DNA of 48,316 nt, taken from a virus. Location of the stretch: positions 1-48,316 of IMG/VR virus record IMGVR_UViG_3300027365_000022, one strand, 5' to 3'. The notes below the pieces were generated by a model. That model was not told where the DNA came from. It ran no database searches and saw nothing but the letters and a program-made list of their open reading frames with translations. Positions within the stretch are counted from its first letter, which is position 1. Every line of letters begins with the position of its first letter. Shown piece by piece: positions 6,477 to 40,397 of this stretch. Position numbers and translations under genes: made by a program.

Positions 6477-6812
6477 ATGAAAAACTTCGTACAGAAAGGC
6501 GACGTTGTCACTTTCACAGCCCCGACCGGTGGCGCTGCCTCCGGCATTCCGCTGGTGGTTGGCTCGCTGGTGGTGATCCCTGCATTTTCAGCCGCTGAAG
6601 GCTACGAATGCGAAGGCGTAACCACTGGCGTGTTCAGCTTGCCGAAAAAATCCACAGACACCCCGACGCAGTTTGCCAAGGCGTATTGGGATGCCACCAA
6701 CGGTGAAGTGACCACCACTGCCACCGACAACACCCTGATCGGTGTGTTTATGCACGCGCACGCTACCGGCACCACTGAGGCGGATATCCGCCTGAATGGC
6801 GTCAGCATCTAA
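6477..6812 (+). CDS. DUF2190 family capsid-associated protein
   Basis: This 111-residue beta-rich protein matches DUF2190, found directly after the capsid gene in many siphophages and Mu-like phages. The N-terminal MKNFVQKGDVVTFTAP and later GVFSLPKKST and IGVFMHAHATGTTEADIRL are typical. Members are thought to be capsid decoration or stabilising proteins, the position of lambda gpD. It has its own ribosome site (CTGGAG) and its stop overlaps the next start (TAATG). Confidence 0.82.
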   Translation: MKNFVQKGDVVTFTAPTGGAASGIPLVVGSLVVIPAFSAAEGYECEGVTTGVFSLPKKSTDTPTQFAKAYWDATNGEVTTTATDNTLIGVFMHAHATGTTEADIRLNGVSI

Positions 6813-7126: not shown

Positions 7127-7134
7127 GCCTGCAT

Positions 7135-7965
7135 TCACGCATAGCCATTCACCCCCAGCCGACGCTGCACACTTTCCATCCCGTCATCCAATTCTGACAA
7201 CGCAACAGCCGCAGTCTTACCAGCGCAGAACTGATCACGCATCTCGATACCGGCACGGCTACCCAGACCTGTCAGGTGCGTATACAGGTTATGCTGGTTG
7301 AACGTGTTGTGCAGATTCAAGAAGTGCCGCTTCAAACGCCAGATGCTATACAGCTGTTCATCCGTAATCGGCGTCATGTTGGGATCATTGGCTGGCAGGT
7401 ATTCGCCATCGATGGCGTAGGCCGCAACAAAAGTGCGCGCACTGTCGAGCTGATCGGCAGGGATATCCTCAGCAGATCGAACGCCATAGGCAGCATGAAG
7501 CTGTGACCAGAGTTTTGAAGTCGCGCTGCGCCGAGCCGGAACCGGCAAGCGTGAAACCTTGCCCTTGATGATTGCGCCAAGAATATTAAAACCGTTGGTG
7601 CCGATGGTCTGACCCAGCAGGGTGCTCATCTTGCGATCACTGTCAGCGTAATAACCATGCTTGCGGATCGCGGGCAGGACTTCTGCAGTCACCCACTTTT
7701 TGAAGCGCTTGGCTTCGGCTTTGCGGCTACGAAGGATCAGGGAGTAAAGACCCGACTCATTGATCAGAACTGGCTTTCGCCCCGAACCCGAATAATGTTC
7801 GTGTTCGCGCTTTTCATCTTCATCCAATCCAATCAGCGCCTTGTTGGTATCCCTCAGATTGAGTGACGAACATACATCGACAGCAAAGAACCAAGGCTGT
7901 TCATTGATCAGCAGCGTGCGAACTTCATGGGTTTCAAAAGCGAATGGGATGATTTGAGCGGCCAT
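7135..7965 (-). CDS. BRO-family antirepressor
   Basis: This 276-residue protein has a BRO-N domain at residues 5-105: FETHEVRTLLINEQPWFFAVDV, then ALIGLDEDEK, LINESGLYSLILRSRK and FKKWVTAEVLPAIRKHG. BRO proteins bind DNA, and phage members often act as antirepressors that overcome a repressor. The C-terminal 170 residues are not recognised. AAGGAGG lies six bases before ATG 7965. It is antisense to the surrounding late genes, so it is an insert with its own control. The 160-base leader contains a C4-like antisense target, which suggests expression is normally held off by the small RNA encoded at 8129-8188. Confidence 0.88.
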   Translation of the reverse strand: MAAQIIPFAFETHEVRTLLINEQPWFFAVDVCSSLNLRDTNKALIGLDEDEKREHEHYSGSGRKPVLINESGLYSLILRSRKAEAKRFKKWVTAEVLPAIRKHGYYADSDRKMSTLLGQTIGTNGFNILGAIIKGKVSRLPVPARRSATSKLWSQLHAAYGVRSAEDIPADQLDSARTFVAAYAIDGEYLPANDPNMTPITDEQLYSIWRLKRHFLNLHNTFNQHNLYTHLTGLGSRAGIEMRDQFCAGKTAAVALSELDDGMESVQRRLGVNGYA

Positions 7966-7991
7966 GGCGGCCTCCTTACTTTTCTTTGAGA

Positions 7992-8040
7992 GTGCCCCTA
8001 AACCGTAGGGGTGCCGGGAGGCTCAAAACGGCAGTAAGCG
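7992..8040 (-). promoter_or_regulatory. Leader of BRO mRNA: antisense target and hairpin
   Basis: The segment 8022-8040 is complementary, at 17 of 19 positions, to 8162-8180 within the upstream small RNA, with one two-base internal mismatch. Nearer the gene, 7995-8000 and 8006-8011 (CCCCTA and TAGGGG) form a six-pair hairpin with a five-base loop, extendable by G-U pairs. GCCTCC of the leader message can also pair with the BRO ribosome site. Together these suggest translation control by RNA pairing. Confidence 0.6.
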
Positions 8041-8048
8041 CCGCGGAC

Positions 8049-8090
8049 TTATTTCCCCGAAGGGTATTTTATTCGTCGCCCTCCCGACAT
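8049..8090 (-). CDS. Possible 13-codon leader peptide
   Basis: A short reading frame in the BRO leader encodes MSGGRRIKYPSGK and stops ten bases before the antisense target. In phages P1 and P7 a small gene (icd) lies between c4 RNA and the antirepressor, and its translation is needed for antirepressor expression. This frame occupies the same place but is much shorter. No clear ribosome site precedes it, so it may be untranslated. Confidence 0.25.
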   Translation of the reverse strand: MSGGRRIKYPSGK

Positions 8091-8128
8091 AACGGGCAGT
8101 GCTCAAGCTACAGGCGTATTTTGGGCAC

Positions 8129-8188
8129 AAAAAAACCAACGCTGACGGGGTTGGGGCTATCCGCTTACTGAGGTTTTGAGTCCTCGTG
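8129..8188 (-). ncRNA. Putative C4-type antisense RNA
   Basis: A strong promoter would start transcription near 8188 and an intrinsic terminator ends it at 8129: CCAAC, nine-base loop, GTTGG, then seven T on the minus strand. The RNA of about 60 bases contains CUCAAAACCUCAGUAAGCG (from 8180 down to 8162). This can pair with the BRO leader at 8040-8022 through 9 + 8 base pairs around a two-base mismatch, plus four more pairs across a bulged A (GAGG with CCUC). This promoter-antisense RNA-antirepressor order is the c4 immunity arrangement known from P1/P7. The terminator stem is short, so read-through into BRO is expected, also as in P1. Confidence 0.68.
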
Positions 8189-8194
8189 CAAGGA

Positions 8195-8224
8195 ACAATA
8201 GCCGCCAACAGGATTGTGTGTCAA
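8195..8224 (-). promoter_or_regulatory. Promoter of antisense RNA / BRO transcript
   Basis: On the minus strand there is a perfect -35 TTGACA (8224-8219), an 18-base spacer and a -10 TATTGT (8200-8195). It fires toward the antisense RNA and BRO gene. It starts four bases beyond the stop codon of the small zinc-finger gene. Confidence 0.7.
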
Positions 8225-8227
8225 CCT

Positions 8228-8371
8228 CTATCGAATCACGCCGGATCTGGAGCTGTAGATCAGTCCACACCGGCTACACCGGAAAATCTTGCCGTTTTCG
8301 TTGGCGGCTTGCCACTTCCAGCTGTGACCTATGAGTCTGCAGGTTGTGTGTCTGTGTAGCAGCTTTATCAT
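8228..8371 (-). CDS. Small zinc-finger protein, DUF1660-like
   Basis: A 47-residue gene whose ATG follows directly after the stop of the DUF4124 gene (TAAATG), so the two should be co-translated. It reads CRLIGHSWKW at residues 11-20, then FRCSRCGLIYS at 30-40. That C-x-x-x-G-H-x-W followed by C-x-x-C-G pattern is typical of very small phage proteins such as the DUF1660 group, probably binding one zinc ion. Function is unknown. Rich positive charge near the N-terminus (KLLHRH) would fit nucleic-acid binding. Confidence 0.62.
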   Translation of the reverse strand: MIKLLHRHTTCRLIGHSWKWQAANENGKIFRCSRCGLIYSSRSGVIR

Positions 8372-8851
8372 TTAGTCACTTATGGAGGTCACAATGCCAT
8401 TGTCAAAGTAAACATACTGCGAGCCATTACGCCCTCTGTCATAGACCCACTGTTCACTCACGCCGCTTGATCTAATCGATCTATTGATATCACTGGGCCG
8501 CCCCCAAGAGGCGAGCACATCAGACTTGGTCATGCTTAGGCGCACTTGTTTGTTGCGGATCGCTTCTTTGTTAAGGCGCCTCTCCCTTGCTTCCGCGGCC
8601 CTCTGTTCAACGATTTCACGACCCCTTGCCCGTCGCTCTTCTAGATCCTTTCGTAGTTCTTCGACTGACCGTGTATTTACGACGGCTGGCGTGTCACTCG
8701 GTGCAGGGGCGTCGATACGTGTCGGCGCATCCCCTGGGCTGCAAGGCGTGCTCTGGTACACCTTCCGCCCGTTGACCTCACAGGTATACACACCCGCTTG
8801 CACCATCACCGGGGCGGTGAACAACAGCGCAAATATGATCCCTTTCCGCAT
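8372..8851 (-). CDS. Exported DUF4124-domain protein (moron)
   Basis: This 159-residue protein begins with a signal peptide (MRKGIIFALLFTAPVMVQA, cleavage after residue 19). DUF4124 follows at 20-40 (GVYTCEVNGRKVYQSTPC), then a charged helix at 60-105. The C-terminal domain (LSMTKSDVLASWGRPSDINR ... WVYDRG) resembles the small BamE/SmpA-like fold. ATG 8851 is chosen because AGGAGG lies six bases upstream; the longer frame to 9133 has no support. It is probably periplasmic. DUF4124 is common in gammaproteobacterial genomes, so the gene looks host-derived. A phage structural role is unlikely, and alteration of the lysogen's envelope is a reasonable guess. Confidence 0.8.
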   Translation of the reverse strand: MRKGIIFALLFTAPVMVQAGVYTCEVNGRKVYQSTPCSPGDAPTRIDAPAPSDTPAVVNTRSVEELRKDLEERRARGREIVEQRAAEARERRLNKEAIRNKQVRLSMTKSDVLASWGRPSDINRSIRSSGVSEQWVYDRGRNGSQYVYFDNGIVTSISD

Positions 8852-8989
8852 GGCAGTCCTCCTATAGCCTTGTTGTGTCAGCAGCAATGCTAACCCCGAG
8901 TTGCTGTGATTTGAAGTCACTATCTCACAGACACCCCCGCCCACATGGCATATAAAGGCCATAACGGAACATGAGCGGGGCTGCACTCC

Positions 8990-9628
8990 ATGGCGCGTTA
9001 TACCGAAAATGCCGCGTACTTCTTTGATAGCAAGGCGTTTGCCGAAACAGTGGCGAAGCTGAAAGCCCGCGAGTCGGTTGTTGCACGCAAGCTGGCAGAC
9101 GCGATCAACTTTACGGCTGAAGAGGTGGTTCACCTGTCTATCGAAGAGTGGAATTCATATTTCACAATCCGAGATGCAGGATACATCGGTGCGCGTTTGA
9201 AAGTGGCAAGAAAGGCCACAGCATCGAAGCTGGAGGCCGCTGTCTGGGCACGAGCCAGGGCAACACGCGCTGACAACTTCAGATATCACGTAGTGCCGGG
9301 CAGAAAAGGCGTATATCTGAATACAGTAAGAACCAAACCAGGTGGAATCATCAGCAAGGCGTTCGTCATTCCGCGCGCTAAATCCAACGGTAAGCCTCTG
9401 ATAGTAAAACGGCTGAAAGATTATGTGCCTGGAGAGGCGCGTGACTTTAAACACCATGGTGAAGAGATCAGCAGAAACTTTAACCGTTACCGGAAAGCCA
9501 AGGATCCACGCTTCAAGGCAGTGTATGCGCCGTCAGTGAACCAGCACTTCTATGATTCCCGCGACCGTGTGGCACCGAAGGCATTGAGTGAGGCAAAACA
9601 ACAATTCCTGAAGGCAATCAACGCATGA
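8990..9628 (+). CDS. Minor tail protein Z-like
   Basis: This 212-residue, basic protein fits the lambda gpZ family: N-terminal helices with AFAETVAKLKARESVVARKLADAINFTAEEV, then YFTIRDAGYIGARLKVARKAT and a conserved tail VYAPSVNQHFYDSRDRVAPKALSEAKQQFLKAINA. gpZ acts late in tail completion, at the head-proximal end. It resumes the rightward late cluster after the opposite-strand insert and overlaps the next gene by ATGA. No strong ribosome site is visible. Confidence 0.75.
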   Translation: MARYTENAAYFFDSKAFAETVAKLKARESVVARKLADAINFTAEEVVHLSIEEWNSYFTIRDAGYIGARLKVARKATASKLEAAVWARARATRADNFRYHVVPGRKGVYLNTVRTKPGGIISKAFVIPRAKSNGKPLIVKRLKDYVPGEARDFKHHGEEISRNFNRYRKAKDPRFKAVYAPSVNQHFYDSRDRVAPKALSEAKQQFLKAINA

Positions 9629-10558: not shown

Positions 10559-11308
10559 ATGGGTGTATTGGTAAACGAATACTACAAGGGCAAGGGTACC
10601 GCCTACCTGCGCCGCCGTTCCGGCACTGACGGCCTGCTGCCGATCGGTAACGCCTCTGAAATTGCACTGGCGTTCAGCATCAACAAGCAGGAAATGAAAG
10701 ACTACGAGAACGCCGGTGGCGCCACTGCTGACACGGCTACCTCTATCGAGTCTGCAACCGCCAACATCACGTTGATGAACCTTAACCCGACCAACATTGC
10801 CCGTGTGACGGCCGGTACCACCTCTGTGGTTGAGGCTGGCGCTGTAACGGCTGAAGCGCACACCGTTGGCGCTCAGGGTTCGTTCGTGAAGTTCGACAAG
10901 ATCCCGGACACCTCCGGCACGATCACTGTGACCGGTACCGGCGGCACCCCGGCCTATGTTGAAGGCACCGACTACGAAACCAAAAACGGCGGCATCCTGA
11001 TCCTGGAGGGTGATATTGCCGCTGCGGCTGAAATCGAAGTGAACTACACCGCGGTTAAGTCCCGCGTGGTGCAGTCGCTGATGGAGATCGGCGAAGAGTA
11101 CGAAATGTACTTTGACGGCTTGAACGAAGCCCGCTCCGGTAAGGCATCACTGGCCACCATGCACCGCGTGAAGGTGAACCCCACACAGGGCCTGCCGTTG
11201 ATCTCGGACGACTACGCCAGCCTGCAGTTCACCGTGGACATTCTGCGTGACGACACTGTGACCGGTTCCGACAAGTCCAAGTACGTCATGATGGAATACG
11301 CCGAGTAA
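10559..11308 (+). CDS. Major tail (tube) protein
   Basis: This 249-residue protein has features of siphophage tail tube proteins: a start GVLVNEYYKGKGTAYLRRR, IGNASEIALAFSINKQEMKDYEN, a Gly/Thr/Ala-rich middle with VEGTDYETKNGGILILEGDI at about residues 135-160, and a C-terminal EIGEEYEMYFDGLNEARSGK. It should stack in hexameric rings around the tape measure. Ribosome site AAGGAG lies ten bases before the start. A strong terminator follows it, so it can be made in large excess over the tape measure. Confidence 0.85.
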   Translation: MGVLVNEYYKGKGTAYLRRRSGTDGLLPIGNASEIALAFSINKQEMKDYENAGGATADTATSIESATANITLMNLNPTNIARVTAGTTSVVEAGAVTAEAHTVGAQGSFVKFDKIPDTSGTITVTGTGGTPAYVEGTDYETKNGGILILEGDIAAAAEIEVNYTAVKSRVVQSLMEIGEEYEMYFDGLNEARSGKASLATMHRVKVNPTQGLPLISDDYASLQFTVDILRDDTVTGSDKSKYVMMEYAE

Positions 11309-37194: not shown

Positions 37195-37926
37195 CTAAAT
37201 TTGCCTGAATGTTAACCCTACCACTTGGCCGATGATGCGAATGCAGTCCAGATTGTGATTTGCCAGTACTTCATCCGGGTAGTGGTTTTTGTCTGGATTG
37301 TCACTGATTATGCGCCACGCACCATCAATCCTGCGCGCAAAGCGTTTTACTCTTGTTTCGCCCTCAAATTCAAACGCATAGACCTTACCATCAAGCAATC
37401 GGGTTGCGGCCAAGTTCACCATCACCTGATCACCATGCATCAGTGTCGGCTCCATGGATTCACCGTTTACGTTTACAATCTGAGCGGCGTGTGGATCAAC
37501 GCCCATTGCGCTGAGTCTGGAAAGCGATACAGGCACTGTTTCAACCACCCTGTCATGGTCAATGCATATCCCATTACCTGCAGAAATCTCTGCATTCCTC
37601 ACAGGCACTTCAAATACCTCTGAAGCTGGCTGATAGATACCCGCTGACTCCTTGATTTTCGCTTCCTTGCTGCTCTTTATTTCATCAAGCGTTCGCAAAC
37701 CATCACTGTAAAGGTCTTCTACTTCGCATCCTAGCGCCTTGGCGACCTTCCATAGGTGACGTGAGTTATCCGTCTTGCCTGAAACGATCTTATGAATGGT
37801 CGGCTGAGAAACGCCAGCAGCATCTGCTAGCTCCTTCTGCGTAAGGCCTAGTTTGCTCATGAGGTATGCGACGTTGCGCGAGATGATGTCTTCCATATAA
37901 CCCATGTTATAGGCAAGTGAGCCCAT
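37195..37926 (-). CDS. cI: CI-like phage repressor (HTH + S24 peptidase)
   Basis: This 243-residue protein has an N-terminal helix-turn-helix (LTQKELADAAGVSQPTIHKIVSG, residues 28-50) and a C-terminal S24/LexA-like self-cleaving domain with Ser157 (NGESMEP) and Lys194 (TRVKRF). The probable cleavage site is Ala116-Gly117 (EISAGNG). It should maintain lysogeny by binding ATAAC-N4-GTTAT sites and be inactivated by RecA during the SOS response. A GAGGGA ribosome site supports ATG 37926, which places one operator inside the first codons; Met8 and Met11 are alternatives. Confidence 0.93.
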   Translation of the reverse strand: MGSLAYNMGYMEDIISRNVAYLMSKLGLTQKELADAAGVSQPTIHKIVSGKTDNSRHLWKVAKALGCEVEDLYSDGLRTLDEIKSSKEAKIKESAGIYQPASEVFEVPVRNAEISAGNGICIDHDRVVETVPVSLSRLSAMGVDPHAAQIVNVNGESMEPTLMHGDQVMVNLAATRLLDGKVYAFEFEGETRVKRFARRIDGAWRIISDNPDKNHYPDEVLANHNLDCIRIIGQVVGLTFRQI

Positions 37927-39317: not shown

Positions 39318-39701
39318 CGCACGATCGGCCCAGCGGCGGGGTAGGGCGCCGACCGGGATTAGCAGAGAGCGCCAGCAGTAACAGGCCGTGCCCGGACATG
39401 GAAAAACATCTGCAGCAGAGCGATGACACTCCTTTGGCCTCACGGCAAGTCAGGCGCTCTCCTGAAAGCACAGGGTAATACAGCTGTAATGGGGCAGCGT
39501 CTTGAGTGAGTACGGTCGCGGACACCCCGGAAAGACGGGGCACTGAACAGCACCTTCGGCCGATGGGTTTTTATCCTGGCCCGCAGGCATGGAAGAGGGT
39601 GCTGTTCAGTGGGTGGCAGATTGGCACCTACCAGACAAAAGAAAACCCGGTACTGAATGGCTGGGGAGCCGCACCGGGTTAACTCAAAACGAGGGTTTAT
39701 G
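39318..39701 (+). other. Gene-free, highly structured RNA-like region
   Basis: No convincing gene of normal size lies here; the only frame of note encodes a 26-residue peptide at 39399-39479 without a ribosome site. Several inverted repeats are stacked in order. The first pair is AGAGCGCC/GGCGCTCT (39366-39373, 39453-39460), enclosing GCCGTG/CACGGC (39385-39390, 39441-39446). Next come CCCCG/CGGGG (39525-39540), the 14-base CACTGAACAGCACC with its exact complement (39541-39554, 39598-39611), and AACCCGGT/ACCGGGTT (39644-39651, 39673-39680). The last hairpin ends 22 bases before the next start. It looks like a non-coding RNA or regulatory leader. Confidence 0.55.
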
Positions 39702-40397
39702 ATGCCGCAAATTATGAAGATTGACAACCTGAAGATTCGTACAGATGAGGAAGGCCGATTCTGCCTGAATGATCTGCATAAGGCTGCTGGCAACGAGAAG
39801 CGCCACTCTCCGAGTTACTGGCTAAACAACCAGCAAACAAAAGAACTGATCGATGAATTGGAAACTACCGGAATTCCGGTAGTAACGGCTGGGGGGCGAA
39901 AGGGCGGTACATATGTCTGCAAAGAGCTGGTGTATGCCTATGCCATGTGGATCAGTGCAGCGTTTCACCTGAAAGTGATTCGAGCCTATGACGCACTGAT
40001 CAACAACCAGGTTGAACTGGCCCAGCAGCAGGTACAGCGTGAACGCGCCCGTCTGGAGTCGCGTTATCTGAATGACGCGGTGAAGTTCAATCGATTGGAC
40101 AACGGCCAGCCAGTCAAACACTACCATTTCTCGAACGAATACGACCTGATCAACCGCATTGCGCTTGGTTCAACCGCCAAGCAGTTCCGTGCCCGTCACG
40201 GTCTGGCCGCCAATGAGGCGATCAGGGACCACCTGACGCCGCTTGAGATGCAGTGCATCACCCACCTGCAGAACATCGATACCGGTCTGATTGAGGCCGG
40301 TATGACCTTTGAGCAGCGCAAGAAGCGGCTTTCCCGAATTTATATGCAGCGATACGCAGCCCGACTGTGCGCTGAAGTTGAGCGGCTGGAGGCATAA
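39702..40397 (+). CDS. KilA-N domain protein
   Basis: This 231-residue protein has a KilA-N domain at about residues 5-100: LKIRTDEEGRFCLNDLHKAAGNEKRHSPSYWLNNQQTKELIDEL, then GGTYVCKELVYAYAMWISAAFHLKVIRAYDALI. The C-terminal part is a helical DNA-binding-like region (LINRIALGSTAKQFRARHGL). Phage KilA-N proteins are antirepressors or regulators. GAGGG lies six bases before ATG 39702; ATG 39699 is also possible. It is the second antirepressor-type gene of this phage. Confidence 0.85.
   Translation: MPQIMKIDNLKIRTDEEGRFCLNDLHKAAGNEKRHSPSYWLNNQQTKELIDELETTGIPVVTAGGRKGGTYVCKELVYAYAMWISAAFHLKVIRAYDALINNQVELAQQQVQRERARLESRYLNDAVKFNRLDNGQPVKHYHFSNEYDLINRIALGSTAKQFRARHGLAANEAIRDHLTPLEMQCITHLQNIDTGLIEAGMTFEQRKKRLSRIYMQRYAARLCAEVERLEA

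Follow-up and report, generated by a model that had tools for sequence, protein, structure and literature searches.

The C4 module of P1/P7 and of P. aeruginosa phages like PAJU2 (Rfam RF01695, RF03163 and RF01394) consists of a promoter, a terminated a1b1 RNA, a structured RNA, an a2b2 element at the ribosome-binding site and the antirepressor gene, with C4 being cut by RNase P and its b' loop covering ribosome-binding sites (PMC5320573). In Gifsy-1 the short RNA IsrK acts in trans to raise translation of the antirepressor anrP about 140-fold, and STnc1160, located downstream of IsrK, appears to be processed from a read-through transcript (PMC4825925). In phage P4 the CI RNA has one pairing site upstream, seqA, and another downstream, seqC, and its effect is on termination (PMC4825925). 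Antisense control of an antirepressor is also exerted by sar of P22 (RF00262).

The window, the whole stretch of DNA analyzed here, is the 48,316 bases at positions 1-48,316 of the IMG/VR virus record IMGVR_UViG_3300027365_000022. Its genes, among them an integrase, a CI-like repressor and those for head and tail, are those of a temperate tailed phage. The features of the locus and its surroundings are as follows.

6477-6812, head decoration gene, flank of the cassette
7127-8989, inserted cassette at the head/neck gene boundary, missing in the syntenic relative L303
7135-7965, minus strand, BRO-family antirepressor gene, 276 amino acids, Bro-N at residues 14-98 (Pfam, PHROGs)
7977-7971, minus strand, Shine-Dalgarno AAGGAGG of the BRO gene
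7975-7980, minus strand, b2 AGTAAG, overlapping the Shine-Dalgarno (overlap with -14 to -5 in relatives)
7985-7990, minus strand, a2 CTCAAA, 5' of the BRO Shine-Dalgarno (near -26 in relatives)
8005-8088, minus strand, sRNA-Xcc1 family RNA (RF02221, Rfam match), predicted C4-like antisense RNA
8022-8029, minus strand, a' GTTTTGAG, unpaired segment joining P3 to the outer stem, complement of a1
8032-8039, minus strand, b' GCTTACTG, loop of hairpin P3, covarying with b1 and b2
8129-8154, minus strand, intrinsic terminator, CCAAC, 9-nt loop, GTTGG and T7 (sequence and relatives)
8129-8190, minus strand, short promoter-proximal RNA of about 60 nt, IsrK/a1b1-like, with predicted ends, a conserved element in relatives
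8163-8170, minus strand, b1 CAGTAAGC, complement of b'
8173-8180, minus strand, a1 CTCAAAAC, loop of hairpin 8185-8170, complement of a'
8195-8224, minus strand, sigma-70-type promoter, TTGACA at 8224-8219, 18-nt spacer and TATTGT at 8200-8195 (scan, conserved in L002)
8990-9628, neck/tail completion gene, flank of the cassette
10559-11308, major tail gene, structural neighbor
37195-37926, CI-like repressor, far from the cassette

On one side the cassette is flanked by two head genes, one for head decoration and a small one of the head region, and on the other by the neck/tail-completion gene. As the syntenic relative L303 lacks the insert, with its counterpart 103-aa gene and its neck gene overlapping by one base, the BRO cassette is a true insertion among the late genes on the opposite strand. 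An earlier reading of this DNA made from the letters alone, referred to as the sequence-only reading, had likewise placed an opposite-strand cassette inside the late structural genes and far from the cI/cro switch, and it had recognized the BRO gene behind its leader. The Bro-N domain of the encoded protein is assigned by Pfam with E=4e-23 and 82.3 bits compared with a curated cut-off of 25.6. The protein matches anti-repressor PHROGs and is 56% identical to Ant of Pseudomonas phage PAJU2, and its homology to Ant proteins suggests that it inactivates the CI repressor. The second minus-strand gene of the insert (8372-8851) encodes a small DUF4124/DUF2845 protein with a signal-like N terminus. 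Outside the cassette, a separate KilA-N domain gene lies near the CI-like repressor (39657-40397, plus strand), and the phage may therefore carry two antirepressor-type proteins.

The leader of the BRO gene belongs to the sRNA-Xcc1 family (RF02221), scoring 69.4 bits, above the gathering cut-off of 53, over model positions 1-87 of 87. The sequence-only reading had proposed C4-type control and a comparison with the Rfam C4 model as its check; the two-RNA antisense arrangement and the c4-like order hold, but the family does not, as the Rfam scan of 7900-8450 at E<=10 gave no match to C4 (RF01695), c4-a1b1 (RF03163), c4-2 (RF02944) or isrK (RF01394) and RF02221 was found instead. Weak matches near the region to potC (E 0.13) and Pseudomon-groES (E 3.3) were taken as chance. 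Although neither covariance model matches the other's RNA, cmscan alignments of the window and PAJU2 give the same layout for both, with an outer stem, P2, P3 carrying b' in its loop, a' as a single strand beside the outer stem, the closing strand of the outer stem and a CC tail, and in both cases a BRO-type antirepressor is the controlled gene. The outer stem of the sRNA-Xcc1 unit is shorter than that of C4, its P2 includes an AAUANAA internal loop, and its upstream RNA is a different one, with no RF03163 or RF01394 match at E<=10, whereas PAJU2-type loci match both. In PAJU2 and related Pseudomonas phages, the 56% identical antirepressor is preceded by c4-a1b1 and isrK and then by a true C4, and the two RNA families therefore seem exchangeable in front of one antirepressor. 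When several offsets are allowed in the search, 87/97 phage elements have an outer stem readable as G...C with RCC behind it, as tRNA-like RNase P substrates do; this is only suggestive of RNase P processing of sRNA-Xcc1.

The locus resembles Gifsy-1 in having a terminated short RNA, read-through, a structured RNA (apparently processed in Gifsy-1 and predicted to be so here) and an antirepressor, but the orf45 translational coupling of Gifsy-1 is not seen and the RNA sequences are unrelated by Rfam. In phage P4, too, a single RNA pairs with matching sites on either side of it within the transcript it belongs to; P4 controls transcription termination of replication genes, whereas the downstream site here is a ribosome-binding site. 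The sar RNA arises from the opposite strand over its target, whereas the antisense RNA here would lie upstream on the same strand. Rfam sar RNAs occur in three loci (L006 2541-2604, L008 2549-2618 and L011 1023-1092), and in L006 and L008 they lie near genes sharing the C-terminal part of the BRO protein; C4, sRNA-Xcc1 and sar thus seem to be alternative regulators of related antirepressors.

The perfect TTGACA promoter of the sequence-only reading (8224-8195) was recovered by the scan with a score of 10/12, a level at which chance alone would give about one site in the 1.7 kb covered; it is kept in the close relative L002, and TTGAC lies just 5' of the unit in 91 related loci. The intrinsic terminator that had been placed after an RNA of about 60 bases is also borne out, since the stem varies between groups of relatives with its pairing kept (CCAAC/GTTGG and CCCACC/GGTGGG). 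A simple terminator scan returned nothing at 8154-8129 because its loop limit excludes the 9-nt loop. The short RNA in relatives is composed of a GAGG/CCTC or GGAG/CTCC hairpin with a1 in the loop, followed by b1, GCGG, the terminator, a U-tract and RTGCC, and the element is conserved in 113/154 loci, a count made with strict matching of the U-tract and RTGCC. A match in a Shewanella phage (L033) was set aside, being common to the U-tract/terminator stretch only and without sRNA-Xcc1.

The segments CTCAAAACCTCAGTAAGCG (8180-8162) of the short RNA and CGCTTACTGCCGTTTTGAG (8040-8022) of the leader are complementary at 17/19 positions, exactly as had been claimed; the best score among 2,000 dinucleotide shuffles of the short RNA is 15. 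Neither the fold of the short RNA alone nor, for the window alone, the plain duplex energy of the leader with the BRO ribosome-binding site is better than shuffles. A third complementary segment, missed by the sequence-only reading, is present at the BRO ribosome-binding site (7990-7975), where a' and b' can pair with a2 and b2 over a shorter length than with a1 and b1, so that a' and b' have partners both upstream and at the ribosome-binding site as in C4. For the window alone this match (6+6 nt) is reached by 61/5,000 shuffles and is only modestly significant, and the case therefore rests on relatives. As the short RNA and the ribosome-binding site are both complementary to the leader, the short RNA is best described as a sense copy of the BRO ribosome-binding region, like a1b1/IsrK, and the sRNA-Xcc1 leader as the carrier of the antisense segments. 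This inverts the roles proposed earlier, when the short RNA was taken as the antisense and not as a look-alike of the ribosome-binding site.

Pattern scans provided about 200 related loci, which contain 251 elements with the core motif and an outer stem. The downstream genes of the phage set match antirepressor families in Pfam, with PHROGs in agreement; among 70 proteins of this set the families, which overlap, are KilA-N (19), AntA (14), P22_AR_C (13), Bro-N (13), ORF6N (11), P22_AR_N (7) and Rha (6). Covariation was analyzed for 53 distinct phage loops, which were defined blind to both partners, counting as a match an exact complement of the loop of at least 6 nt. This loop-only matching was used in place of RNAduplex energies, which distinguish the own partners from those of other loci less clearly than exact complementarity does, as the arms of hairpins and the a' segments held in common can pair with a wide range of sequences. 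The loop is complemented by its own ribosome-binding region in 68% of the 53 loops compared with 5.8% for the ribosome-binding regions of other loci, and by its own upstream RNA in 70% compared with 11.5%. The covariation test set by the sequence-only reading for related phages is thus strongly positive (z=17.6 for the ribosome-binding site and z=15.2 for the upstream RNA), with 0/10,000 permutations as high, a count that ignores phylogeny and for which pairs of near-identical antirepressors are the better argument. The b2 segment overlaps positions -14 to -5, the Shine-Dalgarno, in 42/43 phage loops with a match, and a2 lies near -26. In the pair L086/L067 the antirepressor N termini are identical at 100/100 residues and the loops, ACTGTTGA and ATCTTTGGA, differ; each matches its own b2 (TCAACAG and TCCAAAG, respectively), and cross matches extend over only 4 nt. 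Nine further antirepressor pairs with at least 80/100 identical residues also have differing loops, with b2 matched in most. Pairs of this kind read as compensatory change with the protein held constant. The Vibrio phages L025 and L026, judged by eye, show the same loop/partner switch.

The pattern also appears in several copies of sRNA-Xcc1 from bacterial genomes. In the E. coli O157:H7 EDL933 lysogen, an 89-nt sRNA-Xcc1 has 40,293 RNA-seq reads and a coverage value of 0.02, with almost no ribosome coverage (PMC5331693). The copy located in that chromosome, about 2.6 kb from the coordinate given there (probably another assembly version), is directly 5' of a phage antirepressor with b1/b'/b2 being AACAAATAAGC / GCTTCTTATTT / AACAAATAAGG. 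The symE-sRNA-Xcc1 cassette is the most widespread in Xanthomonas integrons, and its regulatory mechanism is not understood (PMC12444791). The highest-scoring sRNA-Xcc1 copy (92 bits, L273, from a Xanthomonas genome) is of this integron type, located before a short SymE-like protein as judged by eye, with b1 CTCGAAG, b' CTTCGAG and b2 CTCGAAGGAT at the ribosome-binding site. In SymE-type loci of other bacteria a1, a' and a2 change together (CTAGAAA/TTTCTAG, CTTGACAA/TTGTCAA and TGTAGTAA/TTACTAC). The Pfam family SymE_toxin is matched by two members of the genome set. Of the three example loci, L217 and L242 show a resemblance to NCBI's SymE model that stays under its cut-off, and the third, L208, precedes a gene with no family assignment. 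The unit in the window is a member by score of a family known from the literature as a virulence-linked trans-acting sRNA, but here and in relatives it precedes and matches the antirepressor ribosome-binding site, and in integrons that of symE.

The arrangement likely represents a three-part RNA switch with sRNA-Xcc1 as the repressor of BRO translation. The anatomy of the unit, its family, the three-way complementarity with its covariation and the insertion can be read from the sequences compared, and the processing of sRNA-Xcc1, the translational block, titration and immunity are proposed by analogy. C4 (PMC5320573) and IsrK of Gifsy-1 (PMC4825925) therefore serve as models for the mechanism. 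The promoter at 8224-8195 would produce mostly the terminated a1b1 RNA of about 60 nt, and read-through would yield a transcript with sRNA-Xcc1 and the BRO antirepressor, from which sRNA-Xcc1 is probably cut out. With b' exposed in the hairpin loop and a' as a single strand, the RNA would bind a2/b2 at the BRO Shine-Dalgarno and thereby prevent translation, leaving the CI-type repressor active and lysogeny maintained. Since the short RNA duplicates the target in the sense orientation, it would sequester the antisense RNA by titration and, when abundant, turn BRO on, as IsrK does in Gifsy-1. The antisense RNA would also act in trans to silence BRO of an incoming phage whose b type is the same. 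The 53 distinct loop types, which also occur within one antirepressor family, are compatible with RNA-based immunity, and from this diversity and the C4 precedent it is a reasonable inference that the loop type would determine immunity against other phages.

The opposite polarity, with the short promoter-proximal RNA as the repressing antisense and the sRNA-Xcc1 leader only its target, would fit the shortness of this RNA, its possession of a separate promoter and terminator and its 17/19 complementarity to the leader, but the RNA is a sense copy of the ribosome-binding region, to which the leader b' and a' are complementary and with which they covary, and in the analogous C4 and IsrK systems activation comes from the short RNA and repression from the RNA downstream of it (PMC4825925, PMC5320573); this polarity is accordingly considered improbable. 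A P4 CI-like mode, in which sRNA-Xcc1 pairs with nascent a1/b1 and sets the read-through into BRO with pairing at the ribosome-binding site being secondary, is unlikely. In its favor, the conserved terminator sits between a1/b1 and sRNA-Xcc1, and in P4 the RNA that pairs with seqA and seqC acts on termination (PMC4825925). In Xanthomonadaceae loci with XAC0095-type proteins (L159, L191, L232, L267 and others) the match between a1/b1 and b' is clear and the ribosome-binding site match is absent, so the layout is not always a sign of pairing at the ribosome-binding site. The placement of b2 on the Shine-Dalgarno in nearly all matched phage loops would be needless for termination control alone, and the two modes could coexist.

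A regulator of host genes acting in trans, its position before BRO being incidental, appears very improbable. The basis for such a role is the description of sRNA-Xcc1 in Xanthomonas, where by the title of a 2011 paper Chen et al. reportedly found an integron-encoded trans-acting sRNA under HrpG/HrpX control (cited in PMC12189769 and PMC12444791); the loop, however, follows the neighboring ribosome-binding site and upstream RNA locus by locus, and the integron-type copy of Xanthomonas itself matches the neighboring symE. The weakness of the ribosome-binding site match in the window taken alone would allow an accidental or decayed inverted repeat without function, an explanation that retains almost no probability; it is refuted because the pairing segments covary across many loci, and the shuffles that never attain 17/19 and the high Rfam score also count against it.

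Returning to the three-part switch, the change of the three pairing segments together in many phages suggests that the "virulence sRNA" family is in fact an on/off switch for phage antirepressors and SymE-type toxins. The wider proposal, to which we give an even chance, is that C4 has a widespread counterpart in sRNA-Xcc1, a second antisense system of C4 type with no Rfam relationship to it, whose exchangeable loop provides dozens of RNA immunity types for temperate phages, and that it has been recruited by integrons and genomes as a same-strand SymE antitoxin RNA. In that case the RNA that gave the family its name, described as a virulence sRNA and of late suggested to target plant genes, would have the adjacent gene as its main target. 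sRNA-Xcc1 has been annotated in many genomes since 2010, and the open literature yielded no validated target and no statement of a three-way switch; with subscription journals outside the scope of the search, the novelty of the switch is provisional. In the literature the RNA figures as a regulator of virulence and as cargo of vesicles; the covarying match offers it a concrete and testable target, and the three-way match would explain its recurrence in prophages and beside symE in integrons. The logic of C4 would thereby be present in another RNA family, exchangeable before the same antirepressor, and the loop sequence suggests a phage immunity type that could be read from genomes.

Multiple units also occur in close proximity. 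In Xylella fastidiosa De Donno, sRNA-Xcc1, isrK and C4 share a strand and a stretch of 400 bases, and in Temecula1 sRNA-Xcc1 occurs five times at spacings of about 380 bases (PMC12189769); such clusters may represent a series of antirepressor switches and not RNAs directed at plants. The phage loci L027 (2072-2161 and 2611-2696) and L030 (2504-2590 and about 2741-2840) each carry sRNA-Xcc1 units in tandem whose loops differ.
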